Shown here: piece by piece, positions 5,133-16,417 of the stretch
Layout of the letters: the number at the start of each line of letters is the position of its first letter
Numbering within the stretch: position 1 is the first letter of the stretch
NCBI RefSeq assembly: GCF_004362895.1
Contig: NZ_SNXI01000003.1
Coordinates: 62,001-126,000, forward strand
Direction: 5' to 3'
Length of the DNA: 64,000 nt
From: Idiomarina aquatica
GTDB taxonomy: Bacteria > Pseudomonadota > Gammaproteobacteria > Enterobacterales > Alteromonadaceae
Translations under genes and position numbers: made by a program
Notes under the pieces: model-generated
Databases searched by the model: none
What the model saw: only the letters and a program-made list of their open reading frames with translations
Told to the model about the DNA's origin: nothing

Positions 5133-5411
5133 GTGATCCGAAACTTCAAGCACAAAGGTTTGGCTAAGTTTTTCAGGTTCGGTAGCACCGCAGGGATTCA
5201 GGCCAGCCATGCAAAGAGGCTTCGGCTTATTCTCGGTAGGTTGAATGCGGCATCTGGCACAAAAGATATGGATTTGCCAGGTCTTCGACTTCATGAGCTC
5301 TCCGGTAACCGCTCTGGAATTTGGTCAGTGACAGTCAGCGGAAATTGGCGCGTGACCTTCCGATTTGAGGATGGAGATGCCGAGATAGTAAATTATGAAG
5401 ATTATCACTGA
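5133..5411 (+). CDS. higB: HigB-type toxin (RelE/ParE superfamily)
   Basis: A 92-residue protein with GTG start at 5133. It matches HigB: FKHKGLAKFF at the N-terminus, a central LRLILGRLNAA helix, DMDLPGLRLHEL, and the C-terminal GNWRVTFRFEDGDAEIVNYEDYH. HigB toxins are RelE-fold ribosome-dependent mRNA interferases; the family places catalytic His/Lys residues around these strands. It is followed after 9 bases by a HigA antitoxin, the usual reversed toxin-first order, with a near-consensus promoter immediately upstream. The unit should be a type II toxin-antitoxin module stabilising the island. Confidence 0.9.
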   Translation: MIRNFKHKGLAKFFRFGSTAGIQASHAKRLRLILGRLNAASGTKDMDLPGLRLHELSGNRSGIWSVTVSGNWRVTFRFEDGDAEIVNYEDYH

Positions 5412-5420
5412 GGTATTCCT

Positions 5421-5708
5421 ATGTTAATGCACAATCCCCCCCACCCCGGTGAAGTTGTACGAGAGCTTTGTCTCGAACCTCTTAGCTTATCTGTAACCGC
5501 TGCAGCGGAAGCTTTAGGCGTAAGCCGGAAAACGTTAAGTGCTGTTCTGAACGGCAAGGCTGGTATTAGCCCTGAAATGGCTATCAGGCTCTCAATTGCA
5601 TTTAATACTTCGGCGGAGAGCTGGCTAAACCAGCAGTCTCAATATGAACTTTGGCATGCCGAGCAACATCGTAAAGAACTCAAGGTTAAGAAGCTCGTTG
5701 CCGCATAA
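5421..5708 (+). CDS. higA: HigA-type antitoxin (XRE/Cro DNA-binding)
   Basis: A 95-residue protein beginning [15 protein letters not shown], the hallmark HPGE start of HigA/VapI antitoxins. A helix-turn-helix occupies about residues 25-60 ([21 protein letters not shown]), followed by [20 protein letters not shown] and the conserved YELWHAEQ. It should neutralise HigB from the preceding gene and repress the shared promoter. A diverged relic of a second higA C-terminus lies at 8257-8394, on the far side of hipBA. Confidence 0.92.
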
Positions 5709-6422: not shown

Positions 6423-7748
6423 TTAGGCAAAATCTTTCAACTTGAGGTGCCTGTCAATTGATTCCACAAGCGCTTTGGGCACCTCATGTTCAGTGGCCAA
6501 CTCCCGCCACTGATACACCGCGTTTATCACTTCATCAATAATGGCATCTATTTCTTTGCGCTCTATCTTTGGCAACTGAACGTCTGCAAGTGCATAAAAA
6601 TCGGCGCGGGTATGGCCGCTGCGCTTGCCATTTAACGACATCCAGTGCTGCTCTACCCAAGGGTTTCCGGGCTTAAAGCTAAAGGCAACATCGTAAGCCG
6701 GGCTCAACCGCCATTGCTTGCCCTCCAGCATAAAGCCAAAGTTCTTGGAGTGATCATCGTGGTTGGTTGCTACGTGGTTAAATACCATACGGCGGAACAA
6801 GTCTATAGCGTCCACCCGTGGCAACCTTAGCTGGCGGGCAACCTGAAACAGCTCTTCATAAGAAAACGCACCAATGTCGTGATAGTTCACGTGCTTAATA
6901 GCGGTAAGCGTTTGAATATGCTTTTTCTCATTGCCTATTCTGTCAAAGCGCTTGGTCACAAAATGGCGGCGGTTGCCTTCATCCAGCAGGTGGCATGGCA
7001 TCATATGAATGCCGGCTTGCGTGGCCATTAAGTAATACACATACTCCATGGCACCGTAACCCATCGGGTCGCCAAAGGTTTGCTGAGAAGGGTCGCGCTC
7101 TTTTACGCCGTCAAACTTCAGCAGGTAATGCTCGAACCCTTCGGGCACAAGCCCCTGCCCGGAACGAACCTGGCTGAAGTCCTTATTAAACGCCAATACC
7201 GCTTTTGGTCTTGCGCCACCGGCGCTGGTACCAACCGCTAACAAGGCCTGCATCATTTCTTTGTCTGCCGCGTCGTCAAAGTGCGTGCGCTGACGAAAAC
7301 CCTTTCGTGCATCGAGCACTTCCTGCGCTAATCTCATTAAACTTTCAAGCTCAATGTCTTTGTTTTTGGCGTTGGTTTGATTCTTACGAGCAGGGTGATA
7401 CTCAAGAGCGCCCATGCCCCGCTCACCGGTATACTGAAGTCGCTCAAGCGGACTCAGGGGCTCGGTGCGATCGGGCTGTTGCGCAACCCATTGATTCAGT
7501 ACCGCATTACCAAAGTCGTCGGGCAAAGAGTCTGCCAGCATGCCCGGCAGCCCTCTGAAGGTATCCCAATTTAACCCCGGAAAGGAGTAAATTCGTGCCT
7601 TCTCAGCAGGCATAGTTAAAGGCGCCAGCGGAATGTCTTTTTCGACAAATTCGGATAAGTACTCGAACCGCGCAGCCGTGTCGCCTTTGTTATAACTTAA
7701 GGCACCGACAGGCTCACCTTTGTAGCGAACTTCAATGGTATTAATCAC
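6423..7748 (-). CDS. hipA: HipA-type serine/threonine kinase toxin
   Basis: 441 residues. The N-terminal HipA_N domain (about 1-105) has YKGEPVGALSY and PGLNWDTFRGLPGMLADSLPDD. The kinase-like domain contains the glycine-rich loop TSAGGARPKAVL, equivalent to the segment carrying the autophosphorylated Ser in E. coli HipA. The catalytic motif is NHDDHSKNFGF with D331 as likely general base, and the metal-binding motif is SPAYDVAFS. HipA toxins phosphorylate aminoacyl-tRNA synthetases such as GltX and cause persistence. The gene overlaps the upstream hipB by 4 bases. All key motifs appear intact. Confidence 0.93.
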   Translation of the reverse strand: MINTIEVRYKGEPVGALSYNKGDTAARFEYLSEFVEKDIPLAPLTMPAEKARIYSFPGLNWDTFRGLPGMLADSLPDDFGNAVLNQWVAQQPDRTEPLSPLERLQYTGERGMGALEYHPARKNQTNAKNKDIELESLMRLAQEVLDARKGFRQRTHFDDAADKEMMQALLAVGTSAGGARPKAVLAFNKDFSQVRSGQGLVPEGFEHYLLKFDGVKERDPSQQTFGDPMGYGAMEYVYYLMATQAGIHMMPCHLLDEGNRRHFVTKRFDRIGNEKKHIQTLTAIKHVNYHDIGAFSYEELFQVARQLRLPRVDAIDLFRRMVFNHVATNHDDHSKNFGFMLEGKQWRLSPAYDVAFSFKPGNPWVEQHWMSLNGKRSGHTRADFYALADVQLPKIERKEIDAIIDEVINAVYQWRELATEHEVPKALVESIDRHLKLKDFA

Positions 7749-8065
7749 CAGTCCAGCTCCTTGTCATCAGCGGGTTTCACACGCGTTTTACCGCTCGCTC
7801 GCTTCTTCTGTTTGGTGCTACTTTTGAGTAGTTGCACAGGAGAAACGCCCTCGTCCGGGAACGCGGCCAGTAAATTGTCGATATGTCCCAAAGCCTGAAG
7901 AATAGCGACATAGGTCGGTAAGGTGCTTTTACCACCTTCCGCGGATTTAACCGCATTCAGTGAGACATTAGCTAAGGTCGCTAAGTCCTCCTGAGTTAAA
8001 TCTTGATTCAACCGATACTGCCTGACTCGCTGACCAATGATGGCTGAAACACGTTCAGAATCCAT
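7745..8065 (-). CDS. hipB: HipB-type antitoxin (XRE family)
   Basis: 106 residues. A Cro/C1-type helix-turn-helix lies at about residues 10-65: IGQRVRQYRLNQDLTQEDLA, then LANVSLNAVKSAEGGKSTLPTY. A basic, Lys/Arg-rich tail of about 25 residues (STKQKKRASGKTRVKP) follows. It precedes hipA with an ATG overlap, so the pair is translationally coupled. HipB should repress its own promoter and hold HipA inactive. Its start codon lies inside the left arm of an 11-base inverted repeat (8061-8071 with 8149-8159). Confidence 0.9.
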   Translation of the reverse strand: MDSERVSAIIGQRVRQYRLNQDLTQEDLATLANVSLNAVKSAEGGKSTLPTYVAILQALGHIDNLLAAFPDEGVSPVQLLKSSTKQKKRASGKTRVKPADDKELDW

Positions 8066-8488: not shown

Positions 8489-10072
8489 ATGACAAGTACC
8501 CAACAGCGCGCCGCACTTCAGCGCCAAATATGGCAAATTGCTAACGACGTTCGTGGCTCAGTCGACGGCTGGGATTTTAAGCAGTATGTACTCGGTACTC
8601 TGTTCTATCGCTTCATTAGCGAAAACTTCGCTAACTATATAGAAGGCGGTGACGAAAGCATTACTTACGCAGCGCTCGACGACTCGGTAGTAACGGACGA
8701 CATTAAAGACGACGCCATTAAAACCAAAGGTTACTTCATATACCCAAGCCAGTTGTTCGAGAACATTGCGAAAACGGCAAACAAAAACGAGAGCCTGAAC
8801 ACCGACCTTGCCAATATTTTTGGTGAAATTGAAAACTCGGCCAATGGCTATGCATCGGAAGACGACATTAAAGGCTTGTTCGCTGACTTTGACACCACCA
8901 GCAATCGCTTAGGTAGTACCGTTAAAGATAAAAACCAACGCTTAGCAGCGGTATTAAAAGGTGTAGCAGGTTTGGACTTCGGCAACTTCGAAGACAACCA
9001 CATAGACCTGTTCGGCGACGCTTACGAGTTTCTTATTTCAAACTACGCAGCCAATGCCGGTAAGTCGGGCGGCGAGTTCTTTACCCCGCAACAGGTGTCG
9101 AAGCTAATTGCCCTGCTTGCCATTAACGGCCAGGAACAAGTCAATAAAGTCTATGACCCAGCAGTGGGGTCGGGCTCTTTGCTGATGAAAGCCAGAAAGC
9201 ACATGGACCCGCACCGCATTCAAGACGGTTATTTCGGGCAGGAAATTAACCACACCACCTACAACCTTGCCCGTATGAACATGTTTTTGCACAACATTAA
9301 CTACGACAAGTTCAATATCCAGTTGGGGAACACACTGACTGATCCGCATTTTCTTGATGACAAACCGTTTGACGCAATAGTCTCTAACCCACCCTATTCG
9401 GTGAAGTGGATTGGTAGTGAAGACCCCACACTGATTAACGACGAACGTTTTGCCCCTGCCGGCGTGTTGGCACCAAAGTCAAAAGCGGACTTTGCCTTTG
9501 TGCTGCATGCGCTCAATTACCTGTCGAGTAAGGGCCGGGCTGCTATAGTTTGCTTCCCGGGTATTTTTTATCGCGGTGGTGCCGAGCAGAAAATCCGTAA
9601 GTATTTAGTCGATAACAACTACGTTGAAACCGTCGTTTCATTAGCACCGAACTTGTTTTTTGGCACCTCTATTGCCGTGAATATTTTGGTGCTCTCAAAG
9701 CATAAACGAGACACCACCACGCAGTTTATTGACGCCAGCGAGTTATTCAAAAAAGAAACCAACAACAACTACCTCACCGATGAGCACATCGAGCAGATTA
9801 TAAAGGTGTTCGAGACTAAAGAAGATGCTGAACACTTCGCTAAGTCAGTGCCGTATGAACAAGTCGCAGAGAATGACTACAACCTCTCAGTCAGCAGTTA
9901 TGTAGAACTCAAAGACACTCGTGAAGTTATCGACATTACCGAGATAAACGCAGAGCTGAAAACCACCGTTGCCAAGATTAATCAATTGCGTGCCGATATT
10001 GATGCGATTGTGGCGGAGATTGAAGGGACTACACCAAATGGAATTAGCATCGCAGGAGGCGAGCCCAAATGA
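8489..10072 (+). CDS. hsdM: Type I restriction-modification methyltransferase subunit HsdM
   Basis: 527 residues. An N-terminal HsdM_N helical domain (about 10-165) is followed by an N6-adenine methyltransferase domain. The SAM-binding motif is [11 protein letters not shown], and the catalytic motif IV is NPPY at residues 300-303 (SNPPYSVKW). [11 protein letters not shown] before motif I is the usual type I signature. With HsdS it methylates adenine in a bipartite target; with HsdR it forms the restriction complex. It heads an operon and overlaps the next gene, a KilA-N protein, by 4 bases. Confidence 0.95.
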
Positions 10073-10893
10073 GCAAAAGTATTGCTGTACTCAACACGGA
10101 AGTAAAAATCAAAACAGTCGAACGCGACGACTTTATTTGTCTGACAGATATTGCCAAATCAAAAAACCCTGAACACCCTGATGATCTCATCCGAAACTGG
10201 CTTCGCAACCGCAATACGCTTGAGTTCCTGGGTATTTGGGAGCAATTAAATAACCCTAGTTTTAATTCCGTCGAATTCGACGGGATTAAAAGCCAAGCTG
10301 GATTAAATAGTTTTGCAATCACCCCCAAGCAATGGATAGCGTCAACTCGAGCTATAGGACTGACATCTAAAGCTGGCCGCTACGGCGGAACCTATGCCCA
10401 CAAAGACGTGGCGTTTGAATTCGCAGCTTGGGTTTCTGTCGAGTTTAAACTGTACTTAATCAAAGAGTTTCAACGCTTAAAAGAAGACGAGCAGAAACAG
10501 CTGGGCTGGGATGTAAAACGCCACCTCACTAAAATTAACTATCACATTCATACCGATGCCGTAAAAGAAAACCTAATCCCTCCGGAGTTAACACCGCAGC
10601 AAACCGGTAGCGTCTATGCGTCTGAGGCAGATTTACTCAACATGGCACTGTTTGGCAAAACCGCTAAGCAGTGGCGTGACGAAAACCCCAACAAAGAGGG
10701 TAATATTCGTGATTACTCGAACGTTTCACAGCTGGTATGTTTGGCTAATCTTGAAGCCTTAAATGCTCATCTGATTCAGCAAGCTGTACCACAAGCGCAG
10801 CGGCTTACCCTGCTCAATAACACCGCCATTCAACAAATGCAGCTGTTGACTGAAGACAAAAGCATGAAGAAGCTCGAAGGAGGTCAGGGATGA
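10069..10893 (+). CDS. KilA-N domain DNA-binding protein embedded in the hsd operon
   Basis: 274 residues. The N-terminal KilA-N domain (about 5-125) shows [29 protein letters not shown] and a conserved end [20 protein letters not shown] then [15 protein letters not shown]. The C-terminal half (about 145-265) is helical and of unknown function, with [19 protein letters not shown]. KilA-N domains are nucleic-acid-binding folds common in phages and viruses. The gene overlaps hsdM and hsdS by 4 bases on each side, so it is translationally coupled within the RM operon. A role in regulating or tuning restriction is inference. All residues needed for the fold appear present. Confidence 0.85.
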
Positions 10894-12143
10894 GTGACGT
10901 TAGCTTTATAGAACGGTTGTTGGATGGGGTTGAGGTGGAGTGGAAGCCGTTTGGAGAAATCGGTGAATTTATTCGTGGTAACGGGCTACAGAAAAAGGAT
11001 TTTATCGAGAATGGGTTTCCAGCTGTGCATTACGGCCAAATATACACAAAATATGGATTGTTCGCAGAAAAGACGTTCACTTTTGTCTCGGAAGAGTTAG
11101 CGGCTAAGTTACGAAAAGCTCGTAAGAATGACTTGTTGTTGGCCACGACATCCGAAAATGATGAGGATGTTGTGAAGCCTTTGGCGTGGCTTGGTCAGGA
11201 CGTTGCGATTTCTGGCGATATGATGCTTTTCAGGCACGAGCAAAATGTAAAATATCTAGCTTACTTTATTCAAACTGCTACTTTTCAGAACGAAAAGCGA
11301 AAGTACATTAGTGGCGCAAAAGTACGTCGAGTATCAAGTAGCAATCTGGCAAAAATCGCGGTTCCAATCCCATGCCCTGAAAACCCAGAAAAGTCGCTGC
11401 AAATCCAAGCGGAAATCGTCCGAATTTTGGACGCATTTACCTCCCTTACCGCCGAGCTTACCGCCGAGCTTACCGCACGCAAAAAACAATACAACTACTA
11501 CCGCGATAAATTGCTCAGCTTTGAAGAGGGCGAGGTGGAGTGGAAGCCTTTGGGGGATATCGCCAGAGTAAGACGGGGCGCATCTCCTAGACCCATATCT
11601 AAATATATTACAGAAGATGAAAGTGGCATCCCATGGATCAAGATTGGGGATACGAAGCCTGGAACTAAATTTATAACCAGTACAGCTCAGAGAGTTACAG
11701 TTGAAGGCTCAAAAAAATCGCGAGTTCTAAATCCAGGCGATTTTGTAATCTCTAACTCGATGAGTTTTGGTCGCCCATACATTTTAGCAATTCGCGGAGC
11801 AATCCATGATGGTTGGGCCGCTATTAGTGACTTTGATGAAATCTTAGATTCAAGTTTTCTTTATCACTTTTTATCGTCGGATATGGTTAGTAATTATTGG
11901 GCGTCGAAGATCAATAGTGGCTCAGTTAGTAACCTAAACGCGGATATCATTAAAACCTTATTAGTGCCGGTGCCGAGCATTACAGAACAGAAAGAGATCG
12001 CAACTATTTTGGACAAATTCGACACACTGACCAGTTCAATCACCGAGGGCCTCCCACGCGAAATTGAGTTACGGCAAAAGCAGTACGAGTACTATCGTGA
12101 TTTACTGCTTAGCTTTCCGAAGCCAGATGAGCAGGCGGCTTGA
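10890..12143 (+). CDS. hsdS: Type I restriction specificity subunit HsdS (type IC-like)
   Basis: 417 residues organised as two half-repeats, each starting with the same block (VEVEWKPFGEIGEF near 15 and EVEWKPLGDIARV near 215). Target-recognition domain 1 spans about 15-165. A central conserved coiled coil follows (AEIVRILDAFTSL then RKKQYNYYRDKLLSF), then recognition domain 2 (about 215-365), and a second coiled coil ending ELRQKQYEYYRDLLLSF. Each recognition domain reads one half of a bipartite site. The central spacer contains two TAEL repeats, as in EcoR124I. It overlaps the KilA-N gene by 4 bases. The target sequence cannot be read from the protein. Confidence 0.93.
   Translation: MSDVSFIERLLDGVEVEWKPFGEIGEFIRGNGLQKKDFIENGFPAVHYGQIYTKYGLFAEKTFTFVSEELAAKLRKARKNDLLLATTSENDEDVVKPLAWLGQDVAISGDMMLFRHEQNVKYLAYFIQTATFQNEKRKYISGAKVRRVSSSNLAKIAVPIPCPENPEKSLQIQAEIVRILDAFTSLTAELTAELTARKKQYNYYRDKLLSFEEGEVEWKPLGDIARVRRGASPRPISKYITEDESGIPWIKIGDTKPGTKFITSTAQRVTVEGSKKSRVLNPGDFVISNSMSFGRPYILAIRGAIHDGWAAISDFDEILDSSFLYHFLSSDMVSNYWASKINSGSVSNLNADIIKTLLVPVPSITEQKEIATILDKFDTLTSSITEGLPREIELRQKQYEYYRDLLLSFPKPDEQAA
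11445..11476 (+). repeat. 12-bp tandem repeat encoding TAEL units in hsdS
   Basis: CTTACCGCCGAG occurs at 11445-11456 and 11457-11468, followed by a partial third copy to 11476. It encodes Leu-Thr-Ala-Glu units in the central spacer of HsdS. In the EcoR124I/EcoR124II pair (known biology) gain of one such unit lengthens the non-specific gap of the target by one base. Confidence 0.9.
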
Positions 12144-12144
12144 T

Positions 12145-12318
12145 ATGTCGATGGCGCTCGGAAATAACAATCTGTTGAGCGTTGCTTACCGAGCGACCGA
12201 GACACTTGCTCTCAAAGGAAGTGCGCGGCCAACCGCAACTGATAAGGATTTCTTAGCAGTTCAAGTCGTTAGTCGATTGAATGGCATTCAAGGAAAAGGA
12301 ATTTCCGATGACCAATAG
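12145..12318 (+). CDS. Possible small protein between hsdS and the RhuM/Fic gene
   Basis: A 57-codon frame starts 1 base after the hsdS stop (ATG at 12145) and ends 8 bases inside the start of the RhuM/Fic gene. The product is mostly polar with one segment LLSVAYRATETLALKG. I do not recognise it, and its ribosome binding site is weak. The continuous packing between two operon genes is the only argument for it. It may just be untranslated spacer. Confidence 0.2.
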   Translation: MSMALGNNNLLSVAYRATETLALKGSARPTATDKDFLAVQVVSRLNGIQGKGISDDQ

Positions 12319-13288
12319 TATTGAAATTTACCAAGCCGATGACGGTAAACTAGAACTCAACGTTACCCTTGAGAACGAAACGGTTTGGCTCACCCAACTA
12401 CAAATGGTAGAGCTATTTGGGCGTGATCAGTCAGTGCTATCTCGACATATTCGCAATGTATTCAAGGACGGAGAATTGTCTGAAAAAAGCAATATGCAAA
12501 AAATGCATATTGCTGGCTCCGACAAGCCGGTAGCCTTTTACTCCCTAGATGTGATCATTTCCGTAGGTTATCGGGTTAAGTCCCAGCGCGGCGTACAGTT
12601 CCGTCAGTGGGCCAACAGAATCCTGAAACAGCATCTCATTGAAGGCTACACGATAAACCAGCGCCGGTTACAAGAGCGAGGTGTTGAGTTCGAGCAAGCG
12701 ATTGCTTTGCTTTCTCGTACACTGGCTAACCAAGAATTAGTGAGCGATGAAGGTGAAGCTGTGCTTGCGGTCATTAATGATTATGCGCGCAGTTGGAGCC
12801 TGTTACAGGGTTATGACGAACAAAGCCTAGCCTCACTAACGAACAAGCAAAATAACATGCTGGCGCTGGAGCTAGACGATGTACTTGTCGCGATTGCCGA
12901 ACTTAAAAAAACGCTCATTGCAAAAGGTGAGGCGACAGAGCTGTTTGGCCAAGTGCGTGGTGACGGCTTGGCGTCTGCACTGGCTACCATAGAGCAAGGC
13001 TTCGCCGACGAATTGTTCTACCCGAACGTTGCAAGCCGTGCTGCACACTTGCTCTACTTTGTCATTAAGAACCATCCGCTTGCCGATGGTAATAAGCGCA
13101 CCGGGTCATTTTTATTTTTATGGTATTTGCGGGTTAATCAGCACCTATTGGCAAAACCTGTTGAGCAATTGATTAACGACAATACGCTGGTTGCGCTGGC
13201 ATTATTAGTTGCTGAAAGCTTACCCGACCAGAAAGAACTGATGATTCGATTGGTTGAGCATTTTATTTTATTAAAAACCGATGAATAA
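12308..13288 (+). CDS. RhuM-family protein with C-terminal Fic/Doc domain
   Basis: 326 residues from the ATG at 12308, which has an AAGGAA Shine-Dalgarno; an earlier in-frame ATG at 12281 is less likely. The N-terminal half (about 1-130) is the RhuM/virulence-protein family: TVWLTQLQMVELFGRDQSVL, RHIRNVFKDGEL, and VKSQRGVQFRQWANRILKQHL. A linker leads to a Doc/Fic-like domain whose core is HPLADGNKRTG at 256-266, with the catalytic His, Asn and Arg retained but Phe replaced by Leu. Such fusions commonly sit inside type I RM loci. The N-terminal half looks nucleic-acid binding and the C-terminal half could modify a protein with a nucleotide phosphate group. Confidence 0.85.
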   Translation: MTNSIEIYQADDGKLELNVTLENETVWLTQLQMVELFGRDQSVLSRHIRNVFKDGELSEKSNMQKMHIAGSDKPVAFYSLDVIISVGYRVKSQRGVQFRQWANRILKQHLIEGYTINQRRLQERGVEFEQAIALLSRTLANQELVSDEGEAVLAVINDYARSWSLLQGYDEQSLASLTNKQNNMLALELDDVLVAIAELKKTLIAKGEATELFGQVRGDGLASALATIEQGFADELFYPNVASRAAHLLYFVIKNHPLADGNKRTGSFLFLWYLRVNQHLLAKPVEQLINDNTLVALALLVAESLPDQKELMIRLVEHFILLKTDE

Positions 13289-13318: not shown

Positions 13319-16300
13319 ATGACCACCTACAAACCCATAGCCGAGTCAAAACACTTTATCGTTTTAGATAAGTACACCAAGCAATATGAAGTTGCTGAAA
13401 GCTACCAAAGCGAGAGTGATTTAGAACGCGAACTGATTCAAGATCTAATGAATCAGGGCTATGAATATGTGCCTGGACTGAATAACCCTACTGCAATGCT
13501 TGCCAATGTGCGCGTGCAGTTGCAGACCTTGAACAACGTTGAGTTTTCAGACGGCGAGTGGGCGCGCTTTGTTGAGACGTATCTCGACAGACCCAGTGAC
13601 AGCATCACCGACAAAACGCGCAAAATTCATGACGATTACATTGAAGATTTCGTTTTTGATGATGGTCGCATTCAAAACATCTACCTGGTTGATAAAAACA
13701 ATATTGCACGTAACAAGGTGCAGGTGATCAAGCAGTTTGAGCAGACTGGTTCGCACGCCAATCGTTATGACGTGACCATTTTGGTGAACGGCCTGCCGCT
13801 GGTTCAGGTTGAGCTGAAAAAGCGCGGTGTGGCGATTCGCGAAGCCTTTAACCAAGTGCACCGCTACAGCAAAGAAAGCTTTAACGCCGAGAGCTCGCTG
13901 TTTAAATATTTGCAGCTGTTTATTATTTCCAACGGTACTGACACGCGCTATTTCGCCAACACCGTTAAACGCAACAAGAACACCTTCGATTTCACCATGA
14001 ACTGGGCGAAGTCCGACAACGGCTTGATTAAAGATCTCAAAGACTTTACTGCGACCTTCTTTCAAAAAGAGACCCTGCTCAAAGTATTACTGCACTTCTC
14101 AGTGTTTGATGTCAGCGATACCCTTCTAGTGATGCGGCCTTACCAAATTGCCGCCACAGAACGCATTTTGTGGAAGATTAAGAGTGCGTTTCAGGCCAAG
14201 CAATGGAGCTCAACCGATGCGGGCGGCTATATCTGGCACACCACGGGCTCGGGGAAAACGCTCACCAGCTTTAAAGCGGCGCGCTTGGCGACCGAGCTCG
14301 ACTTTGTCGACAAAGTGTTCTTTGTGGTCGACCGTAAAGACCTCGATTACCAGACCATGAAGGAATATCAGCGCTTCTCGCCCGATAGCGTAAACGGCTC
14401 GGACAGCACCGCTGGCCTTAAGCGCAATTTGAGTAAAGATGACAACAAAATTATTGTCACCACTATTCAAAAACTGAATAACTTGATGAAAACCGAGCGT
14501 GATTTGCCGGTTTATCGTCAGCAGGTTGTGTTTATTTTTGATGAATGCCACCGCAGCCAGTTTGGTGAAGCACAGAAAAACTTACAGAAGAAGTTTAAAC
14601 GCTATTATCAGTTTGGTTTTACCGGAACGCCGATATTCCCTCAGAACGCATTAGGTGCTGAAACCACCGCCAGTGTGTTTGGTCGTGAGCTTCACTCGTA
14701 TGTGATAACTGACGCCATTCGTGACGAAAAAGTCCTGAAGTTCAAAGTAGACTACAACGACGTACGCCCGCAGTTCCGTGAAATTGAAACCGAGCAGGAC
14801 GAGAAAAAACTCAGCGCCGCGGAAAACAAGCAAGCATTACTGCACCCGGAGCGTATACGCGAGATAACGCAGTACATACTGAAGCATTTCCGCCAGAAAA
14901 CGCATCGCAGGGGAGCTGGTGGCCGAGGTTTTAACGCAATGTTCGCGGTCAGCAGTGTTGATGCTGCAAAAGCCTATTACGAGGCGTTTCAGCAGCTGCA
15001 ACAAGATGCAGAGCGGCCATTACGTGTGGCGACTATTTTCTCGTTTGCGGCGAATGAAGAGCAAGACGCTATTGGCGAAATTCCGGACGAGAGCTTCGAA
15101 GTGTCTGCCTTGAACAGCAGCGGCAAAGAGTTTTTAAGCGCTGCTATTGCTGATTACAACGCCATGTTTAAGGTGAACCATGGCGTCGACAGTAAAGGCT
15201 TCCAGAACTACTATCGCGACTTAGCCAAGCGCGTTAAAAGCCAGGAAATTGATTTGCTGATTGTGGTGGGTATGTTCCTCACCGGGTTTGATGCGCCGAC
15301 ATTGAACACCCTGTTTGTGGATAAGAACCTACGCTACCACGGACTTATCCAAGCTTATTCGCGCACCAACCGCATTTACGATGCCACCAAGACTTTCGGC
15401 AATATTGTCACCTTCCGCGACCTGGAAAAGTCAACAGTTGATGCCATCACCTTGTTTGGTGACAAAAACACCAAGAATGTGGTGCTCGAAAAGAGCTACA
15501 AAGAGTACATGGAAGGCTTTACCGACCTGGTTACCGGCCAAGCACGACGTGGTTTTATGGAAGTCGTGTCCGAGCTTGAACAGCGCTTTCCGGATCCAGA
15601 TGACATTGAACGAGAGAAGGACAAGAAAGACTTCGCCAAGTTATTTGGCGAGTATTTGCGTGTTGAAAATATTCTGCAAAACTACGATGAATTTGCCAGC
15701 TTAAAAGCTCTGCAGAAAATCGATACCAGCGATGATGATGCCGTTGAAGCGTTCAAGGTTGAGCATCATTTAAGCGACGACGATATTGCAACGTTGCAAA
15801 CCATTCGCATACCGCCTGAACGAAGAGTACAGGATTATCGTTCGACCTATAACGATATTCGCGACTGGATCCGCCGTGAAAGATCAGCCGAAAACCAAGC
15901 GCAGTCATCTATCGACTGGGACGATATCGAATTTGAAGTCGACTTGCTGAAGTCGCAGGAAATAAACCTCGACTATATTCTTGAGCTGATATTTGAGCAG
16001 AATAGGAGAAACAAAAGCAAAGACGACTTAATAGAAGAAGTTCGCCGCCTAATTCGCGCCAGCCTTGGCAACCGGGCCAAAGAAAGTCTGGTGGTTAAAT
16101 TTATTAACCAAACCGAGCTTGATGAAATACCGGAAAAATCAGAAATTATCGACGACTTCTACAAATTCGCCCAAGCCGAACAGCTACGTGAAGCCGAAGA
16201 ACTCATTCGCTCGGAGAACCTCAACGAATACGCCGCCAAGCGCTATATCGCCGCCTCATTACGTCGCGAATACGCCAGCGAAAACGGCACCGAGCTGAAC

Positions 16301-16417
16301 TCAACACTGCCGAAACTAAGCCCGCTAAACCCGGAATACCGAACCAAGAAGCAAACTGTGTTTCAGAAGATTTCGGCGTTTGTAGAGAAGTTTAAAGGGG
16401 TTGGTGGGCAGGTTTAG
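13319..16417 (+). CDS. hsdR: Type I restriction endonuclease subunit HsdR
   Basis: 1032 residues. An N-terminal PD-(D/E)xK nuclease has D151 (YDVTILVNG) and E165-x-K167 (VELKK). A two-RecA superfamily 2 motor follows: Walker A TTGSGKT with K313, motif II D408-E-C-H411, motif III FTGTPIF, and later motifs TGFDAP and [10 protein letters not shown] helical C-terminal domain contacts the methylase core. It translocates DNA using ATP and cuts unmodified DNA far from the site. It follows the RhuM/Fic gene after 30 bases and closes the operon. Length and motifs are complete, so it should be active. Confidence 0.95.

Follow-up and report, generated by a model that had tools for sequence, protein, structure and literature searches.

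A type IC-like hsd locus with a tandem array in hsdS

We found that the window, by which we mean the whole 64,000-nucleotide stretch of Idiomarina aquatica DNA that was analysed, carries three hsd genes in one locus with two further genes interspersed among them, all on the forward strand. The methyltransferase subunit is encoded by hsdM (8489-10072; 527 amino acids), which matches PF02384 and PF12161 and scores over the cut-off of the TIGR00497 hsdM model, and the specificity subunit by hsdS (10890-12143), whose frame is open and intact over 417 amino acids with two Methylase_S stretches (PF01420). The EcoR124 HsdS structure (PDB 7bst) aligns to residues 1-413 of this protein with an E-value of 6.1e-77. 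The restriction subunit is encoded by hsdR (13319-16417; 1,032 amino acids), which scores over the cut-off of TIGR00348 and matches PF04313, PF18766 and, with an E-value of 7.5e-72, the EcoR124 C-terminal domain PF12008 (EcoR124_C). Between hsdM and hsdS lies a KilA-N domain gene (10069-10893; 274 amino acids; PF04383) that overlaps each of its two neighbours by 4 nt and is outside the switch discussed below, and between hsdS and hsdR lies a RhuM-Fic fusion gene (12281-13288; PF13310 and PF02661). Homologues of the KilA-N gene are present in 6 of 212 loci (L060, L073, L185 and three that are the window's own region), while the RhuM-Fic fusion gene is matched in 35 of 212 (three again being the window's own), its place among the hsd genes varying. 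Upstream of the restriction locus we observe HigBA-like (5133-5708) and HipBA-like (6423-8065) gene pairs, and their position beside the hsd genes suggests a defence and toxin-antitoxin island.

Taken by its sequence, this is a complete EcoR124-like (type IC) restriction-modification locus. The three hsd genes are complete and lie together, HsdR ends in the EcoR124 C-terminal domain, HsdM passes the type I hsdM model, HsdS is homologous to EcoR124 outside the recognition domains, and tandem tetra-amino-acid repeats, which sections of a paper on S. xylosus give as a type IC trait (PMC10030836), occupy the central conserved region of HsdS. The other S-subunit loci in the window's genome (C3, C11 and C21) have no such central array in the stretches examined.

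The array spans 11445-11476 and reads CTTACCGCCGAG CTTACCGCCGAG CTTACCGC, which is 2.67 copies of a 12-bp unit and, in the hsdS frame, two TAEL units within the peptide L-TAEL-TAEL-TAR (HsdS residues 186-197). The sequence-only reading had described two perfect 12-bp TAEL copies and a partial third in the centre of HsdS, and Tandem Repeats Finder confirms this exactly, reporting a period of 12, 2.7 copies, 100% matches and a score of 64, the best among its 13 rows for the whole window. With 20 matched bases, it is also the window's sole period-12 run to reach 10 or more; in 100 dinucleotide shuffles, such runs reached at most 11 matched bases, and 91 of the 100 lacked any run of at least 10. 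Given the peptide, two LTAE units would share all codons by chance with a probability of approximately 0.011, with codon usage taken from five genes of the window, and of approximately 0.0008 if the partial third copy is included with its L and T.

Structure models were built with AlphaFold2 for the window's HsdS and for the three-unit HsdS of Pseudidiomarina mangrovi (locus L048), each from an alignment of 80 sequences, namely the window's and 79 picked from 125 distinct full-length relatives, and their comparison was used for fold and helix lengths only. In the window's model (mean pLDDT 89.9), the two recognition domains are joined by a helix of residues 166-208 (11385-11513) that carries the repeat, and a second long helix, the distal counterpart of fixed length, is formed by residues 364-408 (11979-12113). 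The boundaries of the recognition domains are approximate, with the first at residues ~14-161 (10929-11372), placed from the model's secondary structure and the 7bst alignment, and the second at residues ~216-360 (11535-11969), placed from the model and the PF01420 match at 216-393. The central helix is modelled at 43 residues in the window and 47 residues (165-211) in L048. In the PDB, Foldseek matches both models to type I S subunits, and the TM-score to 7bst is 0.60 for the two-unit and the three-unit model alike, a measure that does not resolve a domain shift. The central segment of 7bst, LTAELTAELNMRKKQYNYYRD, is as long as the window's, LTAELTAELTARKKQYNYYRD, and likewise has two units; the PDB gives the molecule name as EcoR124II and the entry as EcoR124I. 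By eye, the window's first recognition domain (10929-11372) resembles the second of an E. coli allele (L193), and the second recognition domain of L048 resembles the first of L193, so that recognition domains appear to move between positions in HsdS.

Unit number and unit DNA among relatives

Relatives were gathered by a family search of the window's genome, by a protein search of 196 genomes (64 matched) and by scans of genome contigs and viral contigs, which together yielded 192 loci and 164 central arrays, 153 of them distinct, with the window's own counted in. Unit number was taken as segment length in four-residue steps, the units not always being TAEL. Among the 153 distinct central segments, two units are the most frequent (90), followed by three (54), one (5), none (1) and five (1), and the two segments of odd length both come from one divergent locus, L180; a 60-residue pattern at L163 is an artefact of the anchors, the array there having three units. 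Whether repeat number is invariant was the check that the sequence-only reading had proposed for its switch, and in the relatives it is not. In the genome-contig scan, the best 80 of 578 relatives comprise 49 arrays of two units, 24 of three, four of one, one of none and one of five, a ratio biased to two units because relatives were ranked against a two-unit query. In the viral-contig scan, of which 80 of 85 relatives were kept, there are 32 arrays of two units, 28 of three, one of one and two of odd length, and the ratio of 32 to 28 is less touched by the ranking bias. With the same anchors, the distal counterpart segment is 28 residues long in all 123 distinct relatives in which it was recognised; recognition was by a short motif, segments lacking the motif being uncounted, and two segments misread as 45 were corrected to 28. 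Since the central segment varies and the distal one is fixed, the length change belongs to the repeat-bearing helix and proceeds in four-residue steps.

Next, we compared the DNA of the units. Adjacent units with the same peptide are identical at the DNA level in 159 of 166 pairs, against a mean of 31.8 and a maximum of 48 in 2,000 shuffles; the two L180 arrays, whose lengths do not fit 16 + 4n, were omitted, and it is the effect size that counts here and not the P value, because related loci are not independent. When identical arrays are collapsed, 52 of 59 adjacent pairs are still identical. Between loci the unit DNA differs, with 27 unit sequences among the identical pairs, and LTAE units (150 pairs) differ on average by 0.05 bases within arrays versus 1.63 between them. 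Peptide variants too are often shared by a whole array, as with LTTE in L016 and LTSE in L020 and L021. Exceptions to this homogeneity are the seven of 166 same-peptide pairs that differ in DNA and the arrays of L010 and L018, in which peptides are mixed. Unit DNA that is the same within arrays and different between loci is the mark of repeated duplication and loss.

Natural pairs were observed in which repeat number differs by one 12-bp unit and the recognition domains are unchanged. The proteins of L156 and L160 are 100% identical outside the array and have two and three units, respectively, and those of L122 and L136, at 99.7% identity, likewise have two and three. Closer to the window, in its own family, L048, from the sister genus, has three copies of exactly CTTACCGCCGAG and differs from the window at two positions over the 70 nt upstream of the array, while two units are found in P. 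donghaiensis (L039), L012 and L017. Within the window's genus, no variation in unit number was seen among three type IC hsdS genes, those of the window, L012 and L018 all having two units (3/3 among fetched loci). Relative to the window, L012, L039 and L048 have HsdM proteins of 89-91% identity and HsdR proteins of 92-97%, with HsdS at ~40%, and the recognition domains are plainly shuffled among these three loci.

Both array lengths in E. coli plasmids

Two E. coli plasmid loci, L193 and L194, have the same gene order from an antitoxin to an IS1 element. Over the 1,242 nt of hsdS compared, they differ by a single 12-bp unit and at one further base, and their flanks differ at 3 of 3,245 bases upstream and 8 of 5,355 downstream; compared base by base, the unit DNA is alike in both forms. 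Probes of 400 and 412 bp, covering the array and reaching into both recognition domains, were searched at an E-value of 1e-180 against 5,426 E. coli genomes. The sequence-only reading had proposed counting repeats in related strains, and here one near-identical allele is present in both lengths, with two units in 145 records from 145 genomes and three units in 174 records from 173 genomes. Neither probe counted the other length, because all matches have at least 99% identity. The matches are predominantly on plasmids (144 of 146 places for two units, 171 of 174 for three), and PLSDB, whose 72,556 records overlap the E. coli genome set, holds 136 two-unit and 143 three-unit matches, one of the 143 being below 99%. 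Of the probe matches, 60 were listed for each length. An IS1 transposase is annotated under an hsdS match of this allele that falls into two pieces in 5 of 60 E. coli records of a different listing, including NZ_CP187212.1 and NZ_CP187196.1. A methylome of ST131 was considered as a source of the recognition motif of this allele and rejected, as sections of that report describe the strain's one plasmid methyltransferase as a type II orphan.

From the two length lists, 20 loci were picked by hand across identity ranks, and all 20 had the array length implied by their list. Compared from 3,400 bp upstream to 3,750 bp downstream, the 20 loci resolve into nine haplotype strings (L204 being compared to 1,700 bp downstream only, and L199 having 2,007 bp downstream), and three of these strings hold both lengths with no other difference. 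The first comprises L194-L197 with three units and L208 with two, the second L198 and L200 with three and L193 and L203 with two, and the third L201 with three and L205, L207 and L212 with two. Three haplotypes with both lengths imply at least three length changes, unless short segments were exchanged, and in these hand-picked loci the result could in part come from short-segment exchange between plasmids instead of slippage.

The 20 loci show 10 substitutions over 7,150 bp and at least three changes of length, from which we obtain a length-change rate of roughly 2,000 times the per-base substitution rate; the ten-site count leaves out nine variable sites at -3400 to -3389 that set L204 apart and belong to a rearrangement junction. 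With a substitution rate of ~2e-10 per base and generation, this corresponds to ~4e-7 length changes per generation, an estimate good to an order of magnitude at best and drawn from a sample chosen to hold both lengths. At 2.67 copies, the array is short for slippage and fast phase variation is unlikely. The short array and the rough rate together therefore suggest a slow mutational switch, with variants present in any large population, rather than classical phase variation.

A probable length-setting repeat, its alternatives and its meaning

In sections of the Loenen review (PMC3874165), EcoR124I is described with two and EcoR124II with three 12-bp repeats and with gaps of 6 and 7 bp, so the claim of the sequence-only reading that repeat number sets gap length in this pair was right (N6 versus N7). 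The same sections report that an extra unit moved the domains by 0.34 nm and rotated them by 36 degrees, and that the changes in hybrids matched prediction. The window resembles EcoR124I and EcoR124II (EcoR124/3) in its hsdM-hsdS-hsdR locus, in the EcoR124_C domain of HsdR and in the TAEL units of the central helix; in contrast, it has other recognition domains, and it has the KilA-N and RhuM-Fic genes in the two intervals between the hsd genes. The type IC systems EcoDXXI and EcoprrI carry the TAEL repeat in the corresponding helix according to the parts of the review that treat them (PMC3874165), but with three units and 7-bp gaps, whereas the window has two units. In Neisseria gonorrhoeae, a partial text on NgoAV (PMC6789123) links the number of LEAT (or EATL) tetrapeptides, together with a downstream frameshift, to GACN6TGC and GACN7TGC in natural strains; tetrapeptide number is thus tied to a gap of N6 or N7 there too, but the NgoAV motif change includes a frameshift that truncates hsdS, whereas the window's hsdS is full length.

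We consider it likely, with a probability of roughly 0.85, that the array sets the length of the linker in a type IC (EcoR124-like) specificity subunit, in which gain or loss of one unit changes the gap of the recognition site by 1 bp. In the model, the two TAEL units sit in the helix that joins both DNA-recognition domains. Replication slippage or unequal recombination would add or remove one 12-bp unit with the frame kept, the central helix would grow or shrink by four residues next to a distal helix of fixed length, and the gap between the half-sites would shift by 1 bp, as between EcoR124I and EcoR124II. As the window is in the two-unit state, its predicted gap is 6 bp. The gap effect of unit number is taken from print, and the present data contribute the array, the locus, the modelled helix, the spread of relatives over two states, the natural pairs and the recurrence in E. 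coli. We infer that the window's gene changes length as its relatives do, that with three units it would remain active, and that such a change would be rare per generation. The suggestion of the sequence-only reading that slippage acts as a specificity switch holds at the level of the family, where specificity change by slippage is well supported and repeat number varies among relatives (90 two-unit, 54 three-unit); for the window's own gene, the TAEL-slippage mechanism is likely, and it may act as a switch within the population.

Among the alternatives, it is rather unlikely that length variants spread by recombination of hsdS alleles, with domains shuffled at breakpoints in the conserved centre, and not by slippage in the array. 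Alleles whose recognition domains differ still share nearly identical central regions, which would make crossing over easy, and the shuffled domains of L012, L039 and L048 are in keeping with it, but the three E. coli haplotypes differ in length alone from 3,400 bp upstream to 3,750 bp downstream, and the unit DNA of L193 and L194 is identical in both forms. We give less credence to a fixed coiled-coil motif that plays no part in switching and that selection, in this lineage, holds at two units. The three type IC hsdS genes seen in the window's genus, all with two units, speak for such a motif, as do the 144 of 153 segments with two or three units, which indicate strong structural limits; selection on the peptide, however, leaves unexplained both the synonymous codons shared in 159 of 166 adjacent pairs, in units that differ between loci, and the two- and three-unit forms on identical E. 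coli haplotypes. A high-frequency phase-variable switch, with mixed methylomes in every culture (a phasevarion), would agree with the recurrence of length changes in E. coli and with an in-frame unit that should alter activity and not abolish it, but is made improbable by an array of just 2.67 copies and by the E. coli rate of ~4e-7 per generation, itself an order of magnitude at best. Phase-variable type I systems, based on simple sequence repeats or shuffling hsdS genes, turn expression on or off or exchange domains. Their repeat-driven change of a methyltransferase would be shared by the locus described here, whereas the frame of the window's hsdS is kept and the gap alone should change.

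If the array sets length as proposed, a one-unit change would give a new restriction target without a new gene, and phages or plasmids shielded from one form would be cut by the other. Gap switching by TAEL units is already known, and a 2020 survey of repeat-bearing type I genes is cited in sections of the S. xylosus paper (PMC10030836); the window's gene adds another type IC example. Three things are added here: units are homogeneous in a wide range of loci, a distal helix of constant length provides an internal control, and in E. coli the two lengths are almost equally common and length change recurs. A literature search found no methylome paper for Idiomarina, and none of the listed titles and abstract openings describes TAEL number surveyed across a population of E. 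coli plasmids. The near-identical allele, present in both states in more than 300 of 5,426 E. coli genomes, extends the classic EcoR124 observation to the level of populations, and because both states circulate on fixed E. coli backgrounds, public reads and long-read methylation data can be used to measure how often gaps switch and what benefit this brings. More tentatively, type IC hsdS genes across many phyla may hold a live two/three-unit gap switch that is fast relative to synonymous divergence and near-equal in plasmid populations, and through which sister plasmids would restrict one another; if so, sister plasmids with the same recognition domains would protect different sites.

Finally, at the extremes of unit number, a locus of an uncultured Thiothrix (L081, 3573-3680) has five identical units and one of Nitrosomonas sp. 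HPC101 (L115, 3573-3620) has no full unit, and both could serve as natural tests of how short or long the linker may be.
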